Assembly: GCA_947303805.1 (NCBI GenBank)
Contig: CAMYZE010000002.1
Span: forward strand, 124,001-188,000
Source of the DNA: an uncultured Clostridia bacterium
Lineage (GTDB): Bacteria; Bacillota; Clostridia; Lachnospirales; Lachnospiraceae
DNA: 64,000 nt
Direction of reading: 5' to 3'
Part shown: positions 2,899-64,000 of the stretch, in pieces
How the letters are laid out: each line of letters starts with the position of its first letter
Numbering within the stretch: position 1 is the first letter of the stretch
The notes under the pieces: generated by a model
Seen by the model: only the letters and a program-made list of their open reading frames with translations
The model's database searches: none
Told to the model about the DNA's origin: nothing
Made by a program: the position numbers and the translations under genes

Positions 2899-5235
2899 AA
2901 TCATCCCCTTCTCTTTAAACTCATGCACTAGTCTTTGTGCAGTGAGTGGGAATTCGTTGAAGCCGATACCTGTGGCATTTAGGACTGCATTACGGATAGC
3001 AACAGCAGGTGCTACTGTAGGTGGCTCTCCTAAAGCTTTATTGCCATAGCCTCCTGTTGGGTCTTTCATAACTACAAACTCAACTTTAAAATCTGGTGAG
3101 TCCATAGCAGTTGGTATTTTATAATCAAGAAGATTATTGTTATATGGTTTTCCAGTTTTTGGATCTAATATAAACTCTTCACTCATTCCATAGCCAAGAC
3201 TCATAGACATACCACCATGAACTTGTGCTGTGGCAAGTGCTGGATTTATTAAAGTTCCTGAATCATGAACACTTATTATATCTTTTACATTTATGATGCC
3301 AAGTGGCATATCAACTTCTATATCAGCAAATGTGCAACCTGATGCAAATGTATTTGTGTGAATATCTGTAGTCTTCTCAGCTGTTATATGTTGATTATTG
3401 GTAAAAGAATAAAATGCTGTCGTAGATAATTTTTCAAGTGAAACTAATTTTTCTTTGCTTTTAATATCTACAACGTAATTGTCAAATACATCTAAATCTT
3501 CTAACTTCTTTCCTTTAAGTTTTTCTTCATCTTCCATAGTTAGTGCATACTCGCATATTTTCTTTTTGAGAATAACTCCACATTCTTTAATTGCATTTCC
3601 TGTTACATAAGTTTGGCGTGAACCATATGCACCTGTATCAAATGGAGTAATATCTGTATCTTGTGAACTCATCACAAATACTTTATCAGGACTTATTCCA
3701 GTTGACTCTGCAGCGATTTGAGTAAATACAGTATCAGCACCTTGCCCAATTTCTGTTGCACCTATTGATAACTGCATAGAGCCATCTTGATTTAATATCA
3801 TACGAACTGAAGCTGTCTCAAGTGCTATAGGAGCAACTGCTGTCTGATATATGAAGCAGCACATTCCTATTCCTCTTCTTATAGGTCCTGTCTGATTTTT
3901 ATATTCTTCTCTCTTCTTTTCCCAATCAATTTTTTTAGAGCCAATCTCAAGACATTTCTTTAATCCATAAGTATAAAACTCTACTCCGCCAGCTTTAAGA
4001 TTTTCATCACAGAGATTATCCATTCTAAATTTTAATGGATCAAATCCACCTTTTTCGCAAATATCATCAGTTAATGTCTCTGCAAATGACACAGCCTGTG
4101 GTACGCCATAAGCACGCATAGCAGCAGATGTTGGCGCATTTGTCCATACAGTATAAGCCTCTGAATTTACCCCAAGAGGATTTTTATATAAGTTTTGAAA
4201 TATTCCTGCACACTTTGCTGTGATACTGTGACCATGTGCTGCATACCCTCCATTTGTACTATAATTTACTAACTCTCTACACAAAAGTTTTCCATCTTTT
4301 GTTGCAAGACCTCTCACATCACCATCCATAGGATGTCTTGTTCTTGTGCCTACCATAGTTTCTTCTCTTGGTATCTCAAGCATTACTGGTTTCCCACCAC
4401 ATTTAACTGAAAGCCAAGCATTAAGTGGCTCGTATAACATATCTTGCTTATTGCCAAAGCCACCACCAATATACGGCTTAATTACTCTAACTTTACCCCA
4501 AGGAATGTTAAGCGCTTGTGCAACAACACGACGACAAATATGTGGGAGTTGAGTTGATGCAACTACTGTTACTTTTCCATTTGTATCAACATAAGCATAT
4601 GAAATTGGTAACTCTATATGACAATGTGAAATTCTTGGAGTTTTAACATTTTTTACTACTTCAATTAAATTTTCTTCGCCATATTCAGCGATTGCTTTCT
4701 TTTTTGCTTCATCATAATTAAAATCATCACTTGATTTAAATGAAGTATGAGCAATTACATTATCTTTTCTCCAATTTGGATGAAGTATAGGAGCATCTTT
4801 ATCATTAAGCATTGAACGAGCATCAGTATGAACTGGGTATTCTTTATATTCAACTTTTATAAGTTTTAATGCTTTATCACAGGCAACATTATCAACTGCC
4901 ACAACTGCTGCTATATCATCACCATAAAATCTTACTCGTTTATTCAATAATTTTTTATCAGCAATATCTTGGTGCTTTTCATCAGTTGACCAAGGATGAC
5001 CAGCAGTTGGAAACTCTACGTCTGGTACATCAAAACAAGTAAAAACTCCAACGACACCAGGGACTTTTCTTGCTTCTGTCACATCCATACTAATTACTTC
5101 ACCATTAGCAATAGTAGAATGTAAAACTTTCGCTATAAGACAATCTCTCGGTGCCAAGTCAGCAGTATATTTTGCACTGCCAGTTACTTTAGCATATGCA
5201 TCCACTCTCAAATTACTTTTTCCAATGTAATCCAT
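2896..5235 (-). CDS. xdhA: Xanthine dehydrogenase, molybdenum-binding subunit (XdhA-type)
   Basis: The 779-residue catalytic subunit of a molybdenum hydroxylase that oxidises a purine ring carbon. I place the start at 5235 (MDYIGKSNLRVDAYAKVTG) because AAGGAG lies about 7 nt upstream; the longer open frame runs into a repeat. N-terminal residues 1-130 form the a/b hammerhead domain. The cofactor loop GGGFGNKQ is at about 257-264, AMRAYGVPQ at about 372-380, and GATEIGQGAD at about 492-501. The likely catalytic glutamate is Glu737 in ALGEPPTVAPA. Relatives encoded beside ygeW, ygeX and ygeY belong to the selenium-dependent molybdenum hydroxylase group, in which labile selenium sits at the active site. 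The linkage is established; its use here is inference. Substrate specificity is not certain. Confidence 0.92.
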   Translation of the reverse strand: MDYIGKSNLRVDAYAKVTGSAKYTADLAPRDCLIAKVLHSTIANGEVISMDVTEARKVPGVVGVFTCFDVPDVEFPTAGHPWSTDEKHQDIADKKLLNKRVRFYGDDIAAVVAVDNVACDKALKLIKVEYKEYPVHTDARSMLNDKDAPILHPNWRKDNVIAHTSFKSSDDFNYDEAKKKAIAEYGEENLIEVVKNVKTPRISHCHIELPISYAYVDTNGKVTVVASTQLPHICRRVVAQALNIPWGKVRVIKPYIGGGFGNKQDMLYEPLNAWLSVKCGGKPVMLEIPREETMVGTRTRHPMDGDVRGLATKDGKLLCRELVNYSTNGGYAAHGHSITAKCAGIFQNLYKNPLGVNSEAYTVWTNAPTSAAMRAYGVPQAVSFAETLTDDICEKGGFDPLKFRMDNLCDENLKAGGVEFYTYGLKKCLEIGSKKIDWEKKREEYKNQTGPIRRGIGMCCFIYQTAVAPIALETASVRMILNQDGSMQLSIGATEIGQGADTVFTQIAAESTGISPDKVFVMSSQDTDITPFDTGAYGSRQTYVTGNAIKECGVILKKKICEYALTMEDEEKLKGKKLEDLDVFDNYVVDIKSKEKLVSLEKLSTTAFYSFTNNQHITAEKTTDIHTNTFASGCTFADIEVDMPLGIINVKDIISVHDSGTLINPALATAQVHGGMSMSLGYGMSEEFILDPKTGKPYNNNLLDYKIPTAMDSPDFKVEFVVMKDPTGGYGNKALGEPPTVAPAVAIRNAVLNATGIGFNEFPLTAQRLVHEFKEKGMI

Positions 5236-5257
5236 AATTTGCTCCTTTATTACAATT

Positions 5258-5282
5258 GGGCTCACAAAGCTCGCCCCTACAC
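5258..5282 (-). repeat. Intercistronic GC-rich repeat, copy 4a (GGGCGAG type)
   Basis: On the minus strand it reads GTGTAGGGGCGAGC, a loop, then GTGAGCCC. It lies directly downstream of copy 4b in the ygeW-xdhA spacer, making a back-to-back pair. The xdhA ribosome site follows within about 15 nt. Confidence 0.7.
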
Positions 5283-5310
5283 GTGCGGATGGCATCCGCC
5301 TCTGCGATTA
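5283..5310 (-). repeat. Intercistronic GC-rich repeat, copy 4b (GGCGGAT type)
   Basis: On the minus strand it reads TAATCGCAGAGGCGGATG, then CCATCCGCAC. The arms GCGGAT and ATCCGC pair perfectly. The first three bases (5308-5310) are the ygeW stop codon. It is the second subtype of the family, closest to the copy at 16143-16166. Confidence 0.72.
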
Positions 5311-6498
5311 TGCGTGCACTCTTGCTTTGTTTGCTGACTCAAGTGCTTTAAGTGTAGCAACTGGATCTTTAAACTTAGCAAGGAAAATCATTGCTGCGAT
5401 AACATATGGTTTGAAGCTTGCTTCTTTGTAAAGTGGATCTCTATATCTATCAAATACTGAACCATCAACTTCACCTTCTTTACAAGATACTCCAGTTATA
5501 TCAGCTGGGAGGCAGTGCATATAAAGTGCTTTGCCACCCTTAGTGAGTTTCATCATCTCTTCTGTACAAGCCCAATCTTTATGTTGTGCATTTTGAGCAA
5601 GTAACTCTTTCTCAAGAGCCTTGATACCATCTGTATCACCTTTGCCATAAAGGTCTGTTCTCTTTTCCATAGCTTTAAATGGTGCCCAAGATTTTGGATA
5701 TACTATATCAGCATCTTTAAATGCTTCTTTCATATCATTTGTCTTTGTGAATTTTCCACCAGTAGCAGCTGCATTCTTCTTTGCAACTTCTTCTACTTCA
5801 GGCATAACTTCATATCCTTCTGGATGTGCAAGGCATACTTCCATACCAAGACGAGTGAAAAGTCCTATAACACCTTGAGGAACTGATAATGGCTTACCAT
5901 ATGATGGTGAATATGCCCAAGTCATAGCAATCTTCTTTCCTTTAAGATTTTCAATGCCGCCGAATTCATGAATTACATGAAGAGCATCAGCCATACATTG
6001 AGTTGGGTGGTCAATATCACATTGAAGATTTACAAGAGTTGGTTTTTGCTCAAGAACTCCATCCTTATGGCCTTGAGTAACAGCTTCAACTACTTCTTTT
6101 TGATATGTATGACCTTTACCGATATACATATCATCTCTTATACCAATTACATCTGCCATAAATGAAATCATATTAGCTGTCTCTCTAACCGTCTCACCAT
6201 GAGCTATTTGTGATTTTCCTTCATCTAGATCTTGAACTTCAAGTCCTAAAAGGTTACAAGCTGATGCAAATGAAAATCTAGTTCTTGTAGAATTATCTCT
6301 AAATAGAGAAATTCCAAGTCCTGAGTCAAATACTTTTGTAGATATATTTCTCTCTCTTAAAGCGCGAAGTGCATCTGCAACTTCCCATACTGCTTTAATC
6401 TCATCATCTGTCTTATCCCATGTAAGAAAGAAATCCCCCTCATACATATTTTTAAAATTTAATTTACTTAACCCTTCAATTGCTTTGTTGAAATCCAT
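5308..6498 (-). CDS. ygeW: YgeW-type carbamoyltransferase
   Basis: A 396-residue member of the aspartate/ornithine carbamoyltransferase superfamily in the YgeW (knotted) branch. The carbamoyl-phosphate loop is STRTR at residues 70-74 (FRDNSTRTRFSF). The second conserved motif is HPTQ at 164-167 and the third is HCLP at 328-331, all intact. E. coli YgeW does not behave as an ordinary ornithine or aspartate carbamoyltransferase. Work on anaerobic uric-acid use links it to a ureido intermediate from which carbamoyl phosphate is released for ATP production. I recall the substrate as 2,3-diureidopropionate but cannot confirm it from sequence. The ATG has an AAGGAG site and the gene lies between ygeY and xdhA. 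Confidence 0.92.
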   Translation of the reverse strand: MDFNKAIEGLSKLNFKNMYEGDFFLTWDKTDDEIKAVWEVADALRALRERNISTKVFDSGLGISLFRDNSTRTRFSFASACNLLGLEVQDLDEGKSQIAHGETVRETANMISFMADVIGIRDDMYIGKGHTYQKEVVEAVTQGHKDGVLEQKPTLVNLQCDIDHPTQCMADALHVIHEFGGIENLKGKKIAMTWAYSPSYGKPLSVPQGVIGLFTRLGMEVCLAHPEGYEVMPEVEEVAKKNAAATGGKFTKTNDMKEAFKDADIVYPKSWAPFKAMEKRTDLYGKGDTDGIKALEKELLAQNAQHKDWACTEEMMKLTKGGKALYMHCLPADITGVSCKEGEVDGSVFDRYRDPLYKEASFKPYVIAAMIFLAKFKDPVATLKALESANKARVHA

Positions 6499-57481: not shown

Positions 57482-60142
57482 TTATAATTTCTCCAAAGAA
57501 ATTTTTAAATCAACAAGCATTTGTTCATATTTATTTAGTTTATCTTTCTCTTCATCAATTTTTTGTTGTGGAGCTTTGCTAACAAATTTCTCGTTTGCAA
57601 GCATCCCTTTAGCTCGTGCAATTTCAGATTCAACTCTCTTTAGTTCATTCTCTATTCTTAGCTTTTCTTTAGCAGTATCAACAAGTTCTTCAAAAGGAAT
57701 ATATACATTGGATTTATCAAATGTAAGCGAAATATATTTATTTGTACTTTCTACATCTTTCACATAACTTATATCCTTAACCAAAGCAAGAGATTTAATA
57801 AATTCAGAACACAACTCATATGCTTTTCGAATTTTTTCATCGCTAGTAGTAAACACTATATCCGGTTTCTTATCTTTCGGAACATTTAGTTCAGATCTTT
57901 GATTTCTAATTGTAGATATAACATTCTTGACATACTCTAAAGAATTCTCTTCTATATCAAAGCAAAACTTTGAATTATATTCAGGGAATTTTTCTTTTAT
58001 AAGTAATTTATCTCCAAATACTTTTCCGTATATTTCTTCAGTAATAAACGGACAAAATGGATGTAATAACTTTAAGCTAGTGCATAAAACAAATTTCAAA
58101 ACATATATAGCCTTATCCTTCTCTTCATCAGTTCCGTTGTATAATATTCCTTTTTTAAACTCTATATACCAATCACAAAACTCTTCCCACACAAACTTTT
58201 GTATCTTCTCTAAAGCAATACCAAGTTCATATTTTTCAATATTGTTTGTAACTTCACTTATGGTATTATTTAGCTTTGAAATAATCCATCTGTCTTCTAA
58301 TCTATCTATATTAATGCTCTCAATATTATTTTCATCAAATGATAATTCTTTAGAATCATTCATTAATATAAATCTTGTTGCATTCCAAATTTTATTTAAA
58401 AAATTCCTTCCGGATGCAACTCTTGATTCATAAAATCTCATGTCATTTCCAGGTGCATTTCCAGTTAATAGAGCAATCCTTAAAGCATCAGCTCCATATC
58501 CTTTAATTATATCAAGTGGATCAATACCATTGCCAAGAGACTTACTCATTTTTCGACCGAGTTCATCTCTTACAATACCATGTATTAAAACTTCATCAAA
58601 AGGACATTTGCCAGTCTGCTCAATACCAGAAAATACCATACGAATAACCCAAAAGAATATTATGTCATAACCTGTCACTAAAACATCTGTAGGATAAAAA
58701 TATTTAAATTTTTCATCATTAGTATTTGGCCATCCAAGTGTAGAAAAAGGCCAAAGTGCTGACGAGAACCAAGTATCAAGCGTGTCTTCATCTTGATAAA
58801 TATTTTTACTTTTGCAGTGTTCACACTCAGTAACTTTGTTATCAGAAACTGTCATCTTACCACAGTCTCTACAATAGAACACTGGTATTCTATGTCCCCA
58901 CCAAATTTGTCTAGATATACACCAATCTTTTATGTTCTCAAGCCAATGCAAATAAGTGTTGGCAAAATTTGCTGGAATAAATTTTAGCTCCCCACTCTTC
59001 AATGCTTCAATAGCAGGTTTTGCAAGTGGTTCCATCTTTACAAACCACTGATCTTTTATCATAGGCTCAATATTTGTTCCGCACCTATCATGAGTTCCAA
59101 CATTATGTTTATATGGTTCAATCTTCTCAATATAACCCTGACTTTTCAAATCTTCAACAATAGCTTTTCTACATGCAATTCTATCCATTCCATCATACTT
59201 GCTACCTTTAAATGTAATTCTTGCATCATCGTCCAATATTTGAATTTGTTCTAAGTTGTGTCTCAACCCCACTTCAAAATCATTTGGATCATGACAAGGT
59301 GTCATCTTTACAAACCCAGTACCAAACTCCATATCGACATATTTGTCGGCAATGATTTCAAGTTTTCTCCCAACTAAAGGTAAAATCAAATAACTACCAA
59401 CTATATCTTTATATCGTTCATCATCTGGATTTACTGCCACAGCAGTGTCACCGAGCATTGTTTCTGGTCTTGTAGTCGCAACAACAATATAATTATTTTC
59501 ATTAATCTTAGTATTTTTATCTTCAAAATAATACTTAATATGATAAAGTGCACCTTCTTGTTCCTCATAATTTACTTCAGCATCAGAAATTGTAGTATGG
59601 CAAACTGGACACCAATTAATAATTTTTTTTCCTTTATAAATCAGTCCCTTGTCAAACAGTTCTTTAAATGTCTTTAACACTGCATGGCTGCAGCCTTCAT
59701 CCATAGTAAATCTTAGTTTACTCCAATCACAACTTGCCCCCATCTTTTTTTGTTGTTCTATGATATTACTCTCATACTTTTCTTTCCAAGCCCATGCCTC
59801 TTTCATGAAGCCTTCTCGTCCTAGACTATGCTTGTCCTTCCCTTCAGCTCTAAGTTTTTCAACAACTTTCACTTCAGTAGAAATAGCTGCATGGTCAGTC
59901 CCTGGTTGCCAGAGAGCCTCGAATCCTTTCATTCTCTTATATCTTATAAGAGAGTCTTGCAGGCTTATATCTAAAGCATGCCCCATATGTAGTTTGCCCG
60001 TAATATTTGGTGGTGGCATAATAATTGTATATGGCTTTTTGTTTGGATTTGGATTTGCAACAAAAGAATCTGCATCCATCCACTTCTTATATATTCTATC
60101 CTCTATATCAGCTGGACTATAATTTTTTTCTAATTTTTCCAT
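57482..60142 (-). CDS. valS: Valyl-tRNA synthetase
   Basis: An 886-residue class I synthetase charging tRNA-Val, with editing domain. Signature PPPNITGKLHMGHALDI at residues 42-58 (HIGH variant HMGH) and KMSKSLGNGIDPLDI near 531-545. Editing domain around 180-350 with TTRPETMLGDTAV near 226. C-terminal coiled-coil arm is the last 70 residues. No T-box leader fits in the 2-nt gap after the upstream gene. Secure. Confidence 0.96.
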   Translation of the reverse strand: MEKLEKNYSPADIEDRIYKKWMDADSFVANPNPNKKPYTIIMPPPNITGKLHMGHALDISLQDSLIRYKRMKGFEALWQPGTDHAAISTEVKVVEKLRAEGKDKHSLGREGFMKEAWAWKEKYESNIIEQQKKMGASCDWSKLRFTMDEGCSHAVLKTFKELFDKGLIYKGKKIINWCPVCHTTISDAEVNYEEQEGALYHIKYYFEDKNTKINENNYIVVATTRPETMLGDTAVAVNPDDERYKDIVGSYLILPLVGRKLEIIADKYVDMEFGTGFVKMTPCHDPNDFEVGLRHNLEQIQILDDDARITFKGSKYDGMDRIACRKAIVEDLKSQGYIEKIEPYKHNVGTHDRCGTNIEPMIKDQWFVKMEPLAKPAIEALKSGELKFIPANFANTYLHWLENIKDWCISRQIWWGHRIPVFYCRDCGKMTVSDNKVTECEHCKSKNIYQDEDTLDTWFSSALWPFSTLGWPNTNDEKFKYFYPTDVLVTGYDIIFFWVIRMVFSGIEQTGKCPFDEVLIHGIVRDELGRKMSKSLGNGIDPLDIIKGYGADALRIALLTGNAPGNDMRFYESRVASGRNFLNKIWNATRFILMNDSKELSFDENNIESINIDRLEDRWIISKLNNTISEVTNNIEKYELGIALEKIQKFVWEEFCDWYIEFKKGILYNGTDEEKDKAIYVLKFVLCTSLKLLHPFCPFITEEIYGKVFGDKLLIKEKFPEYNSKFCFDIEENSLEYVKNVISTIRNQRSELNVPKDKKPDIVFTTSDEKIRKAYELCSEFIKSLALVKDISYVKDVESTNKYISLTFDKSNVYIPFEELVDTAKEKLRIENELKRVESEIARAKGMLANEKFVSKAPQQKIDEEKDKLNKYEQMLVDLKISLEKL

Positions 60143-60144
60143 AA

Positions 60145-60921
60145 TTAACCAATAAACCTAAATTTTTCCTTCCAAATTTTTATTCGCGACAAAACATTTT
60201 CTTTAATATAACTTGATCCCATCAAGAAAATATCTTCAATACCTTTCATTTCTTCACTTTTTCTAACTCTAATCATTCTGCTTACTATATCGTATTCCCA
60301 GTCAGCGAGCAAAGTCTCATTGATATTAGATTCATAATCATAAATTTTATCTACAGTACCATTAAGTTTCAGACAAAAGTATGTTTCTCTCAGTATATCT
60401 AAATCTCTTGTTCTTTTATACAATTCGCCAAGATAATTTGCTGCAATCTCATAAAATTGAAGTTTGGCATAGCTAAAAGCTAATCTCATCAATGCAACAT
60501 CATTACTTTTTGAAATCTTTGAATATTGTGAAATTGCCTTCTCGTACTTTTTAAGTTGAAACAATTTATCTCCAGCTCTCAATATGTAGTCAACCTCAGG
60601 TAAAGATAAAAGTCTAACTAGTCTCATCCTAAACTGTCCTATTTCTTCATCATTGTAAAAATTTGAATTTGCTAGTATATGAGTTAAAATATCAGTCAAA
60701 TTCGCTTTTTTATTAAACATCTCATTGATATCACTAGCAAGTCTTGGCAGCTTAAGTGAATTATCAATATAAAGAATTAAATTCTTTGTTATAAAACTAT
60801 TGGAAATTAAAATTGCATAATTATATATAAAGTATGCTAGCTCTTGAATTGATTTTATATTCAAGTCAGCCTCTTTAATATAATACGGGTTTTTATTTGA
60901 TTTTCCACAATAGATAACCAC
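60145..60921 (-). CDS. Helical TPR-like protein, unknown function
   Basis: A 258-residue mainly helical protein. Its middle, residues about 110-200, looks like tetratricopeptide repeats (AGDKLFQLKKYEKAISQYSKI, LMRLAFSYAKLQFYEIAANYLG-type spacing with A/Y/G positions). No catalytic motif or signal peptide. It starts with GTG at 60921, overlapping the TAG stop of the upstream gene by one base, with no clear ribosome site, so it is translationally coupled. Together with the two genes upstream it looks like one functional module. I do not recognise a named family with certainty. Confidence 0.7.
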   Translation of the reverse strand: MVIYCGKSNKNPYYIKEADLNIKSIQELAYFIYNYAILISNSFITKNLILYIDNSLKLPRLASDINEMFNKKANLTDILTHILANSNFYNDEEIGQFRMRLVRLLSLPEVDYILRAGDKLFQLKKYEKAISQYSKISKSNDVALMRLAFSYAKLQFYEIAANYLGELYKRTRDLDILRETYFCLKLNGTVDKIYDYESNINETLLADWEYDIVSRMIRVRKSEEMKGIEDIFLMGSSYIKENVLSRIKIWKEKFRFIG

Positions 60922-62123
60922 TAAATATATACCTGTCGCGGTGTCATTCTTCTATTTGACTCATAGAACTCACCGAATCCTTTATCTGTCAAAGTAATAT
61001 TAACAATATTTTGTTCAATAAACTCAAATCCCAATTCAAATAGATTAGTTTTATCATCTCTTAGATCCATGTTATCCGGAATAGCAATAGGAACTTCTTT
61101 TATTACTCGCTCAATGACTTTAAGAATTTCTATTTTAATCTCTCTATCATCTTCAACTATCACGTCGTAATTGTTATCATTTAAATTGAACCATTCTTCT
61201 CCAGGTCTAATTAGCTCAATCTTAGTCTTAACTTGATTAACATTAGCTATTAGTCTTATAGAAGCAGTTGTTCGTGCATCTGTTATAAGTAGAACATTTT
61301 TATCAAAATTATTATTTAGAATATCATTTGATAACAACGCCGCAGATTTAGCAAAGAAAAACTGATCAGTTTCAACATTTGCTATGCTACAGACAAAAGT
61401 CATAAACTCTCTATAATATGATGAATCTTGAAATCCGAGTCCTGATAAAATAATGTGATTATACGGTTCCTCTTTTATGCATTTTTTTGCAAAATCATAT
61501 AATATTTTATCACATACCTTTTTACCAGCATCACCCGATAGTAAGTCGAGAGGTAACGCAAGGTGTTCTTGTGTATTTACCTTCCAGTACTCTAAATTGT
61601 TATCATCAACGTATCTCACTAATTCATAATAAGTAAGTGCTTTTTCAGTAAAGTCAAATAGGGAAACAAGATTGCTATAATATGATAGCTCTTTAGATTT
61701 AATATATGACACAAATGCTTCGCTGTAAGTGGTAACATTATATTTATTGTCATCTTTAAAGAATGACTGGAGAGCATACTTAATTTTTTCTAAATACTTT
61801 ATATTGCTTTGCCTTATAACAACTGTTACATATTCTATATCTTCAAACTTTGTCAAAAGATTGCTAAAGAAAATTCTTGTGAGTTCTCTTGCATCATATG
61901 GAGTTTCACCAATTCTCGCCATCCCATCAGTGCCCATTATATAAAATAACTTATCTATGACGATGTCGACATTATCAATATCTTCATTTCTTGCCTCTTC
62001 TCCAATAAACCAATTATTATTTGCAAGGTCTCTTCCAAGTGAAAACGGAAGTGATATGACTTCATTTTCACCTAAAACATTTACATATACATTATTTTCA
62101 TCTAGACTAATTCCTAAAATCAT
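60921..62123 (-). CDS. Degenerate Hsp70/actin-fold protein (DUF5716-like)
   Basis: A 400-residue cytosolic protein with the outline of the actin/Hsp70 ATPase fold. The N-terminus MILGISLDENNVYVNVLGEN aligns with the Hsp70 phosphate-1 strand pair, followed by SLPFSLGRD and WFIGEEA. LVSLFDFTEKALTYYELV near residues 154-171 sits where phosphate-2 (DxGGGT) should be but lacks the glycines. NHIILSGLGFQDSSYYREFM near 225 resembles the adenosine loop, then AKSAALLSNDI. ATP hydrolysis is therefore doubtful. I recall a Lachnospiraceae family DUF5716 with this look; treat that as tentative. An ATGA overlap couples it to the upstream large gene. Confidence 0.65.
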   Translation of the reverse strand: MILGISLDENNVYVNVLGENEVISLPFSLGRDLANNNWFIGEEARNEDIDNVDIVIDKLFYIMGTDGMARIGETPYDARELTRIFFSNLLTKFEDIEYVTVVIRQSNIKYLEKIKYALQSFFKDDNKYNVTTYSEAFVSYIKSKELSYYSNLVSLFDFTEKALTYYELVRYVDDNNLEYWKVNTQEHLALPLDLLSGDAGKKVCDKILYDFAKKCIKEEPYNHIILSGLGFQDSSYYREFMTFVCSIANVETDQFFFAKSAALLSNDILNNNFDKNVLLITDARTTASIRLIANVNQVKTKIELIRPGEEWFNLNDNNYDVIVEDDREIKIEILKVIERVIKEVPIAIPDNMDLRDDKTNLFELGFEFIEQNIVNITLTDKGFGEFYESNRRMTPRQVYI

Positions 62124-64000
62124 ATATTAAACAATTCCTTGGACATTTCCTGCTTTTCGACCATCTCCATAACAACTTTTTTCAATCCTTCTAAATTATC
62201 TCTATCTAGGCAAACAATTGCATCGTTGATAAAATCGAATGTGCTTCTCATTTTCGAGTTCTTTGGATATTCGAATTCATAATTCTCATCATATGTAAGT
62301 GTTCCTCTTGCAAGTATGCCAGCAGAAGCATCATTAGCATTTGTTATTTCGTAATTAATTACTTCATTTTTAAATACCGTAATCTTCTTAACATATATAT
62401 TCATAAACACCTTGGAAAGATCCATGGATTTCTTCTCGTCAACACCACTAATTGATATAGTAACTCTTGGCACAAAATCCTTATCGGCATGGTACTCAAT
62501 ATACTCTTTGTTCATAATATTATAAGGCATTCTCATGTGCTTATTTAAATTTTTGTAATAAGCAAATACATATTCGGTTTTAAGTAATCTTTCCATTGAT
62601 TTTACAAGTATTCTTCTAAGGTCGTTGTTGGATAAAATTTTAAATGTAGAAATATATTTAGTAATTGCAAATAGAAAAATAATTGGCATCGTGTCAATAT
62701 CATCATAGTGATTAGACAAATACTTGGTGAGCCTATCAAAATATATATCATCAGTCTCCTTTTCATCTAAGACATAATCTGTGGCTTTTTTATTAAGGTA
62801 GGCTACTTCTAAATTATTGTCCTCATCACTATTAACATCATAACTCTCAATTATATGATCTATATGTTCTGTATTATCGCTTTCTAGCGAAATCATTAGT
62901 AATTTTTTTGCTATAAAACTAGAGTCTAAGTTCAATTCGTTCATTGCGTCCATTATGAATAACATATTGTCAATTGAAAACTCATAATTGTTAGAAAGAA
63001 AATTTAAGAGTTTGATATCTTTGCATCCGTTTTTAACAAATTTGACTATGTCATTGAGCAATTTATACTTTGACTCTTCATTATTCATGTCTATGCACTT
63101 AGAAAATAGAGTTAGCAAATCGCTATCTTCCATCAAGTCTTGTCCATAAATCGAAACTTTGTCATACACATATTTATATTCATTACATTCAAGCATAATC
63201 TTCAGTATTTTTCTTTTATCAAAAATATCCATCTTGCCAAATACAAGTTTCTTGAGAAAAACTTTAGCTTCTTCCCCAATATCATTGCCAGCCATCAAGT
63301 GTCTAAAATAATAATCAATAATTTTCTTCTTAAACTTTTCCTTTATTACAAGGTTAATTTTAATTTTGTTCTCAAGGTCTCTAATTTCATCTACTTCGTA
63401 TTCTTTAGTAATATTTTCTTGTTCATTGAGTTTTATAATTTTAGTCATATCAATAATTTCTTTCTGTGGGTAATTCTCAATGATATAAGTCTCTAGATCT
63501 TTTCTTTCAAACAGAATTTTTATTATTGAATCTTCAGAATAAAATCTGTTACCATAAACATCTTCATATAAAATTATTCTAGATCCAAAAAATATAGGAA
63601 CATATGCTATGCTATTAAATACATCATACTTTGTTTCTTTTTCAGTTTCAGCATACTTAATAATTATCTTTTTAATATTTGAATTATTAACTATAACTTT
63701 ATGATTTCTAAGTAGATATAATATATTGTTGCAATTATTTTCATTGATAATGTTTTTGCTCAAAACTTTGTTATATATTTTGATAAGTGATTCTGTAATT
63801 CTATTTTGATATATTCTTGATATAGCATATTCTAATATTTCATTGCTATACATTTTATATACATCTTCGTTTTCATCAAATGCTGCAATTATATTTTCAT
63901 ATAGTTTTGTTTTGTCATCAAAAGAATAACTCTTATCGTCAAAATAGTATCTATAGATATATAATGGCAACTTGTAGATGTAATCATCTGGTATAGACAA
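62120..64000 (-). CDS. Large protein of unknown function, C-terminal part (DUF5717-like)
   Basis: The visible 626 residues are the C-terminal part of a longer protein entering from the right edge. The first 400 residues are mostly helical with repeated-looking leucine/tyrosine spacing. The last 200 include a beta-rich region (VTISISGVDEKKSMDLSKVF, ARGTLTYDENYEFEYP) and a helical end. No enzymatic motif, membrane segment or signal seen. It ends in an ATGA overlap with the Hsp70-like gene. From recalled neighbourhood in Lachnospiraceae it may be a DUF5717 protein; that needs a profile search. Confidence 0.6.
   Translation of the reverse strand: MSIPDDYIYKLPLYIYRYYFDDKSYSFDDKTKLYENIIAAFDENEDVYKMYSNEILEYAISRIYQNRITESLIKIYNKVLSKNIINENNCNNILYLLRNHKVIVNNSNIKKIIIKYAETEKETKYDVFNSIAYVPIFFGSRIILYEDVYGNRFYSEDSIIKILFERKDLETYIIENYPQKEIIDMTKIIKLNEQENITKEYEVDEIRDLENKIKINLVIKEKFKKKIIDYYFRHLMAGNDIGEEAKVFLKKLVFGKMDIFDKRKILKIMLECNEYKYVYDKVSIYGQDLMEDSDLLTLFSKCIDMNNEESKYKLLNDIVKFVKNGCKDIKLLNFLSNNYEFSIDNMLFIMDAMNELNLDSSFIAKKLLMISLESDNTEHIDHIIESYDVNSDEDNNLEVAYLNKKATDYVLDEKETDDIYFDRLTKYLSNHYDDIDTMPIIFLFAITKYISTFKILSNNDLRRILVKSMERLLKTEYVFAYYKNLNKHMRMPYNIMNKEYIEYHADKDFVPRVTISISGVDEKKSMDLSKVFMNIYVKKITVFKNEVINYEITNANDASAGILARGTLTYDENYEFEYPKNSKMRSTFDFINDAIVCLDRDNLEGLKKVVMEMVEKQEMSKELFNI

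Follow-up and report, generated by a model that had tools for sequence, protein, structure and literature searches.

The window analyzed here is a 64,000-nucleotide stretch of the genome of an uncultured Clostridia bacterium (G000:C2:124001-188000), and at its right-hand edge lies a trio of minus-strand genes that encode, in order, a DUF5717 protein, a DUF5716 protein, and a tetratricopeptide repeat (TPR) protein. The host belongs to a family (f1) of well over 100 genera that is probably Lachnospiraceae, within an order that is probably Lachnospirales. For the sake of brevity, we refer to it as the home family and to the other families of the order as sister families. An earlier note, made from the window's sequence alone, described the three genes as translationally coupled, and both of the overlaps that it named are present in the sequence:

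62120..64000, minus strand: DUF5717 gene, the C-terminal part that lies within the window (PF18984 and PF18983)
62120..62123, minus strand: ATGA overlap between the DUF5717 stop and the DUF5716 start (sequence)
60921..62123, minus strand: DUF5716, a pseudo-Hsp70 of 400 amino acids (PF18980, hhalign, and tree)
60919..60923, minus strand: TAGTG overlap between the DUF5716 stop and the GTG start of the TPR gene (sequence)
60145..60921, minus strand: TPR protein of 258 amino acids, with a conserved N-terminal region, PYYI...SIQEL (family profile and hhalign)

The DUF5717 gene crosses the window edge, and its complete open reading frame (ORF) of 926 codons (L002 2121-4901) begins with an ATG at G000:C2:188900, 900 bases outside the window. 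Both DUF families had been expected from profile searches, and Pfam recovers them with matches that pass the curated cut-offs: DUF5716_C for the window DUF5716 (E = 1.3e-42) and DUF5717_N and DUF5717_C for the in-window part of DUF5717 (E = 2.5e-44 and 1.5e-41, respectively). The DUF5716 and DUF5717 proteins are thereby members of PF18980, PF18983, and PF18984, to which Pfam had assigned neither function nor fold. A literature search, with subscription journals mostly outside its reach, found no description of the function of DUF5716 or DUF5717 and no essentiality data, in keeping with the earlier note's view that the set has no named function. DUF5716 appears once in that literature, in an unrelated motif listing, and DUF5717 never does.

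The earlier note also regarded the middle protein as a degenerate Hsp70, and profile-profile matches, an intermediate family, and a phylogenetic tree all agree. Relatives of DUF5716 in other families of the order are about 520 amino acids long and have Pfam matches to HSP70 as well as to DUF5716_C; the HSP70 match of the sister pseudo-Hsp70 (the operon D protein) has an E-value of 1.4e-17. The sister-family profile (A2) aligns with DnaK across the nucleotide-binding domain (NBD) and the beta part of the substrate-binding domain (SBD-beta) (E = 2.6e-22), and the home-family profile (A1) matches DnaK as well (E = 1.3e-5). In hhalign, where the E-values are those of single pairwise comparisons, home-family DUF5716 aligns over its full length with the sister pseudo-Hsp70 (probability 100%, E = 2e-54) and with H2, a motif-intact Hsp70 (99.6%, E = 6e-24). 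The controls MreB, valS, and topA all remain below 3% probability against the same profile, with MreB at 0.8%. The window's clade alone, with five members, aligns with H2 at full length (95.4%, E = 2e-8), leaving a gap in subdomain IIB. Homology to the NBD and SBD-beta of Hsp70s therefore spans the full length of DUF5716, by way of family profiles and the intermediate family.

In the tree, H2 is the sister of all pseudo-Hsp70s (support 100/99), and home-family DUF5716 forms one clade (100/99) beside the intermediate L054 (100/100). In L054, the nearest to the home family, subdomain IIB and the full operon are still present. Long branches in several rows, including that of the window protein, make the branching order within the home family uncertain, but the main splits have bootstrap values of at least 98. 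On this combined evidence of profiles, intermediate family, and tree, DUF5716 is a true Hsp70 descendant and belongs to a line of pseudo-Hsp70s whose sister is the lidless, motif-intact H2. Its placement in the Hsp70 superfamily, and that of DUF5716 and DUF5717 in one operon history, is new here.

The locus of nine sister families (f3, f4, f5, f8, f12, f15, f18, f19, and f20) follows the order DUF5717, H1, a GrpE fusion, the pseudo-Hsp70, H2, H3, and the TPR gene. DUF5717 is often divided into two genes in these operons, and those of f3, f5, and f18 add a coiled-coil protein that has a membrane hairpin of two helices. Another family, f14, is known through a match to H1 and DUF5716 only, and some contigs of metagenome-assembled genomes give partial operons. 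The GrpE-like domain forms the C terminus of a long helical protein (L061 9870-11804 and its orthologues), and H3 is an Hsp70-VWA fusion whose metal-site motif, IDTTGSM, looks intact (L061 4495-6573 and its orthologues). We found no description of an Hsp70-VWA fusion, nor of an operon that combines three apparently active Hsp70s, two lidless and one fused to VWA, with a GrpE fusion. As a side observation, the TPR gene (3205-4231) and the Hsp70-VWA gene (4340-6375) of L054 are each split into two ORFs, which may reflect ongoing decay or assembly errors.

H1 occurs in 47 of the 137 genomes of the order, none of which is from the home family, and in 0 of the 348 genomes sampled across the phylum. 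A search of 200 home-family genomes recovered neither H1 nor H2. H1 was not found on plasmids, and its search of viral contigs returned only DnaK-like proteins with about 30% identity. HSP70 matches in the host genome itself are limited to DnaK and one MreB-type protein. Home-family loci and f18 have in common a pyridoxal phosphate (PLP)-type gene that lies divergently upstream of DUF5717, and the short locus thus corresponds to the long locus minus its middle genes. Gene content compared across the order establishes that the active Hsp70s and GrpE were lost from the home-family locus and still stand beside the pseudo-Hsp70 in the sister families.

The decay of the pseudo-Hsp70 can be followed along the window protein, where motif alignment also agrees with the earlier note that the glycines of phosphate-2 are missing:

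62091..62120, minus strand: degenerate phosphate-1 motif, ILGISLDENN instead of xxGIDLGTTNS (motif alignment)
61623..61661, minus strand: degenerate phosphate-2 motif, LFDFTEKALTYYE instead of xxDxGGGTxD (motif alignment)
61480..61500, minus strand: approximate site of the missing subdomain IIB (phosphate-2 to adenosine span)
61428..61451, minus strand: degenerate adenosine motif, ILSGLGFQ instead of xxxGGS (motif alignment)
60969..60989, minus strand: end of SBD-beta, with a conserved TDKGFGE and no alpha-lid after it (sequence comparison)

The same alignment finds the motifs of H1, H2, and H3 intact (DLGTTNS, GGGTFD or GGGTLD, and GGS), and only part of phosphate-1 in the sister pseudo-Hsp70s. 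In the 21 home-family DUF5716 sequences, phosphate-1, phosphate-2, and the adenosine motif are all non-intact, and a largely conserved GxGF replaces the last of these. Subdomain IIB lies between phosphate-2 and the adenosine motif, and this span measures 69 residues in the window protein versus 141 in DnaK, and 51 to 76 in the home family versus 133 to 150 in the sister pseudo-Hsp70s. H1, H2, the sister pseudo-Hsp70s, and DUF5716 are lidless and all end after SBD-beta; what DUF5716 retains is an NBD shell and SBD-beta. Read from these alignments, the order of loss is clear: the ATP motifs went first, in the sister families too, and subdomain IIB then followed in the home family. The result is a natural series from an active Hsp70, through a pseudo-Hsp70 with IIB, to one without it, which asks what an Hsp70 does minus its ATP cycle. 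One f18 pseudo-Hsp70 (L075 6780-8018) has shrunk to 412 amino acids and lost its motifs differently, a case of independent decay. Neither the ancestral multi-Hsp70/GrpE operon nor the loss of subdomain IIB had been part of the earlier note.

DUF5716 is present in 120 of 121 home-family genomes, once in each, and DUF5717 in 118 of 120. Among 398 genomes sampled across the phylum, DUF5717 rises above the cut-off only in the five that belong to the home family, and searches of viral contigs returned no DUF5716 relative. The earlier note had made its reading depend on conserved co-occurrence of the three genes, and the order of the trio is kept in all 51 scored home-family loci. These represent 43 distinct genomes, some scored twice, with L022 left out for a gene missed by the ORF caller. 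DUF5717 is the immediate upstream, same-strand neighbor of DUF5716 in 51/51, and the TPR gene lies downstream of DUF5716 in 47 and is fused to it in the other 4. Proximity to valS and topA had been taken as a sign of a core role. The neighborhood varies among lineages, and it is the near-universal presence of the trio, not its gene neighborhood, that argues for such a role.

The first protein, described in the earlier note as large and helical/beta, has beta and helical parts and a weak alpha-solenoid signal, and the DUF5717 family profile gives only weak matches to pentatricopeptide repeat (PPR)/TPR solenoids. That the third protein is TPR-like is clear for its family and weak for the single sequence: the window protein alone matches TPR in Pfam with an E-value of 0.001 and 19.5 bits, below the cut-off of 27, whereas the family profile matches consensus TPR proteins with an E-value of 4e-38. 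The window's TPR family also aligns with its counterpart in the full operon (hhalign probability 99.9, E = 5e-31). A structure model of the TPR protein is helical with low confidence (predicted local distance difference test [pLDDT] score of 59), and its top fold matches are TPR proteins, all with E-values above 0.09; the model lends weak support to the TPR identity. DUF5716 and the TPR protein are fused into a single protein in four lineages.

A coiled-coil protein of about 390 amino acids with a two-helix membrane hairpin is encoded 3' of the TPR gene in L074-L076, L054, L060, and many home-family loci (e.g., L036 5437-6630). It belongs to no named family, and the hairpin of two transmembrane helices is predicted from hydropathy. 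Strong matches occur in 47 of 120 home-family genomes (about 40%) and none in the host genome, which makes the trio the minimal unit. The coiled-coil protein is likely a membrane anchor of the complex that was lost in the window's lineage.

Outside the module, the window holds one immediate neighbor:

57482..60142, minus strand: valS, 2 bases downstream of the TPR gene

The valS gene adjoins the trio as a conserved neighbor in some lineages only, and topA is near it only in the close relative L033. Upstream of the trio in the host genome lies a divergent DUF4364 gene. Promoter-like sites of the form TTGAAA-17-TATAAT (11/12 match) occur on both strands just outside the window edge (L002 4890-4978) and lie only 7 to 9 bases before the ATGs of DUF5717 and the divergent DUF4364 gene. 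From this spacing, both genes could have leaderless transcripts; the promoter and terminator scan as a whole was near chance level.

We propose that, in the trio, the home family has kept the core of the order's dedicated multi-Hsp70 chaperone operon and that this core now serves as an ATP-independent scaffold or client-holding complex; we put the probability of this reading at roughly 0.6. At the level of sequence, the descent, the order in which parts were lost, the coupling and fusion of genes, and the near-universal retention are established. A stable complex is suggested by the overlapping genes and by the fusion of pseudo-Hsp70 and TPR protein in four lineages. DUF5717, with its beta N-terminal part and helical body, would be the scaffold of this complex, and the TPR protein would clasp the pseudo-Hsp70, whose remaining NBD shell would be structural. 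SBD-beta would hold a client or partner peptide, permanently or with low affinity, with neither nucleotide exchange nor ATP cycling. Where a lineage has the coiled-coil hairpin protein, the complex would be located at the membrane. Exchange factors act on subdomain IIB of Hsp70s, and the joint absence of GrpE, IIB, and the ATP motifs fits a client-holding or structural part without an ATP cycle.

Several points weigh against the proposal. The window DUF5716, searched as a single sequence, has no match to PF00012/HSP70 in Pfam, and its structure model, built from a two-row alignment of the window protein and L033, reached a pLDDT of only 38 and was not used; the homology is settled by the profiles instead. 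Motif loss alone is no proof of lost nucleotide binding. SBD-beta does not stand out in conservation (2.02 bits versus 1.97 and 2.32 elsewhere), which leaves peptide holding without specific support. Lastly, H3 and the GrpE fusion are absent as judged at the home-family locus, the genome-wide search having taken in H1 and H2.

Alternative explanations turn on how the trio compares with known Hsp70 systems. The closest working analogue of DUF5716 is Ssz1, which in the ribosome-associated complex (RAC) with Zuo1 is likewise a non-canonical lidless Hsp70 in a fixed complex; it has a rudimentary SBD, binds nascent chains, and binds ATP without hydrolyzing it (PMC7083937). DUF5716 might similarly keep a nucleotide or other ligand in a remodeled cleft and work as a switch in the complex, as the retention of the whole NBD fold in nearly all members and the conserved GxGF would allow. 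We consider this quite unlikely, however, as all 21 home-family sequences have lost phosphate-1, phosphate-2, and the half of the adenosine clamp that IIB contributes, and the three f18 copies have decayed differently, as expected without selection on the site. At the ribosome, Ssz1 is moreover partnered by a J-domain protein, whereas the partners of DUF5716 are the TPR and DUF5717 proteins, and its IIB is gone too. Neither a Pfam J-domain nor an HPD motif was found in the operon proteins checked, which also speaks against the trio as an adaptor for the housekeeping DnaK, acting in client delivery or as a co-chaperone rather than as a complex of its own. The canonical DnaK is the sole other Hsp70 in the host genome and could have replaced the lost active Hsp70s, and TPR proteins often partner Hsp70s. 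DUF5716 is homologous to DnaK across the NBD and SBD-beta, and the sister operon has a GrpE-like factor, as in the DnaK/DnaJ/GrpE system; yet DUF5716 lacks the nucleotide motifs, IIB, and the lid, the home-family locus has neither GrpE nor DnaJ, and nothing links it to dnaK. An adaptor role thus appears unlikely.

The nearest published description is that of the GAP1-N2 conflict systems of Firmicutes and Actinobacteria with an Hsp70/GrpE theme (Kaur et al. 2020, eLife, PMC7159879), which in Firmicutes comprises HSP70, GrpE, sometimes a second HSP70 without SBD, and the beta domain FNIII fused to DnaJ or TPR. A related anti-phage or signaling role would account for the similar parts, including the VWA and TPR domains of the sister operon, but HSP70 and GrpE are neighbors in the sister families only and not at the window's locus. 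The sister operon further differs in its three motif-intact Hsp70s beside a pseudo-Hsp70, its GrpE on a long helical part, its Hsp70-VWA fusion, and DUF5717. The operon proteins that were scanned, without the far flanks, yielded no GAP1/TRAFAC GTPase, DnaJ, FNIII, or effector domain, and PADLOC gives only weak Hsp70/TPR cross-matches. Unlike typical patchy defense genes, the trio is single copy in nearly every home-family genome, H1 is not on plasmids, and viral contigs hold distant DnaK-like proteins only; the home family has also lost the active parts. We therefore do not file the trio under GAP1-N2 systems and rejected conflict or defense as the main explanation, a very improbable one on these grounds. 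Hsp70 and actin have a common fold, and the earlier note accordingly raised a polymer-based complex, in which the TPR and DUF5717 proteins would be partners of an actin-like filament. This suggestion did not hold up: similarity to the MreB profile is negligible (hhalign 0.8%), the nearest relatives are Hsp70s with SBD-beta, and the loss of IIB and the nucleotide motifs would remove the usual polymer switch. With its profile closer to Hsp70 than to the MreB branch, an actin-like polymer was rejected as the main explanation and seems hardly credible.

Returning to the retained chaperone core, we see an even chance that the whole family has swapped an ATP-driven four-Hsp70 machine, with GrpE, VWA, and TPR components, for an ATP-independent pseudo-Hsp70 core that its members need for a conserved cell process. 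Two uncharacterized protein families, carried by almost every member of a bacterial family that is probably Lachnospiraceae, the dominant one of the gut, here gain a fold, an evolutionary origin, and a complex that can be tested.

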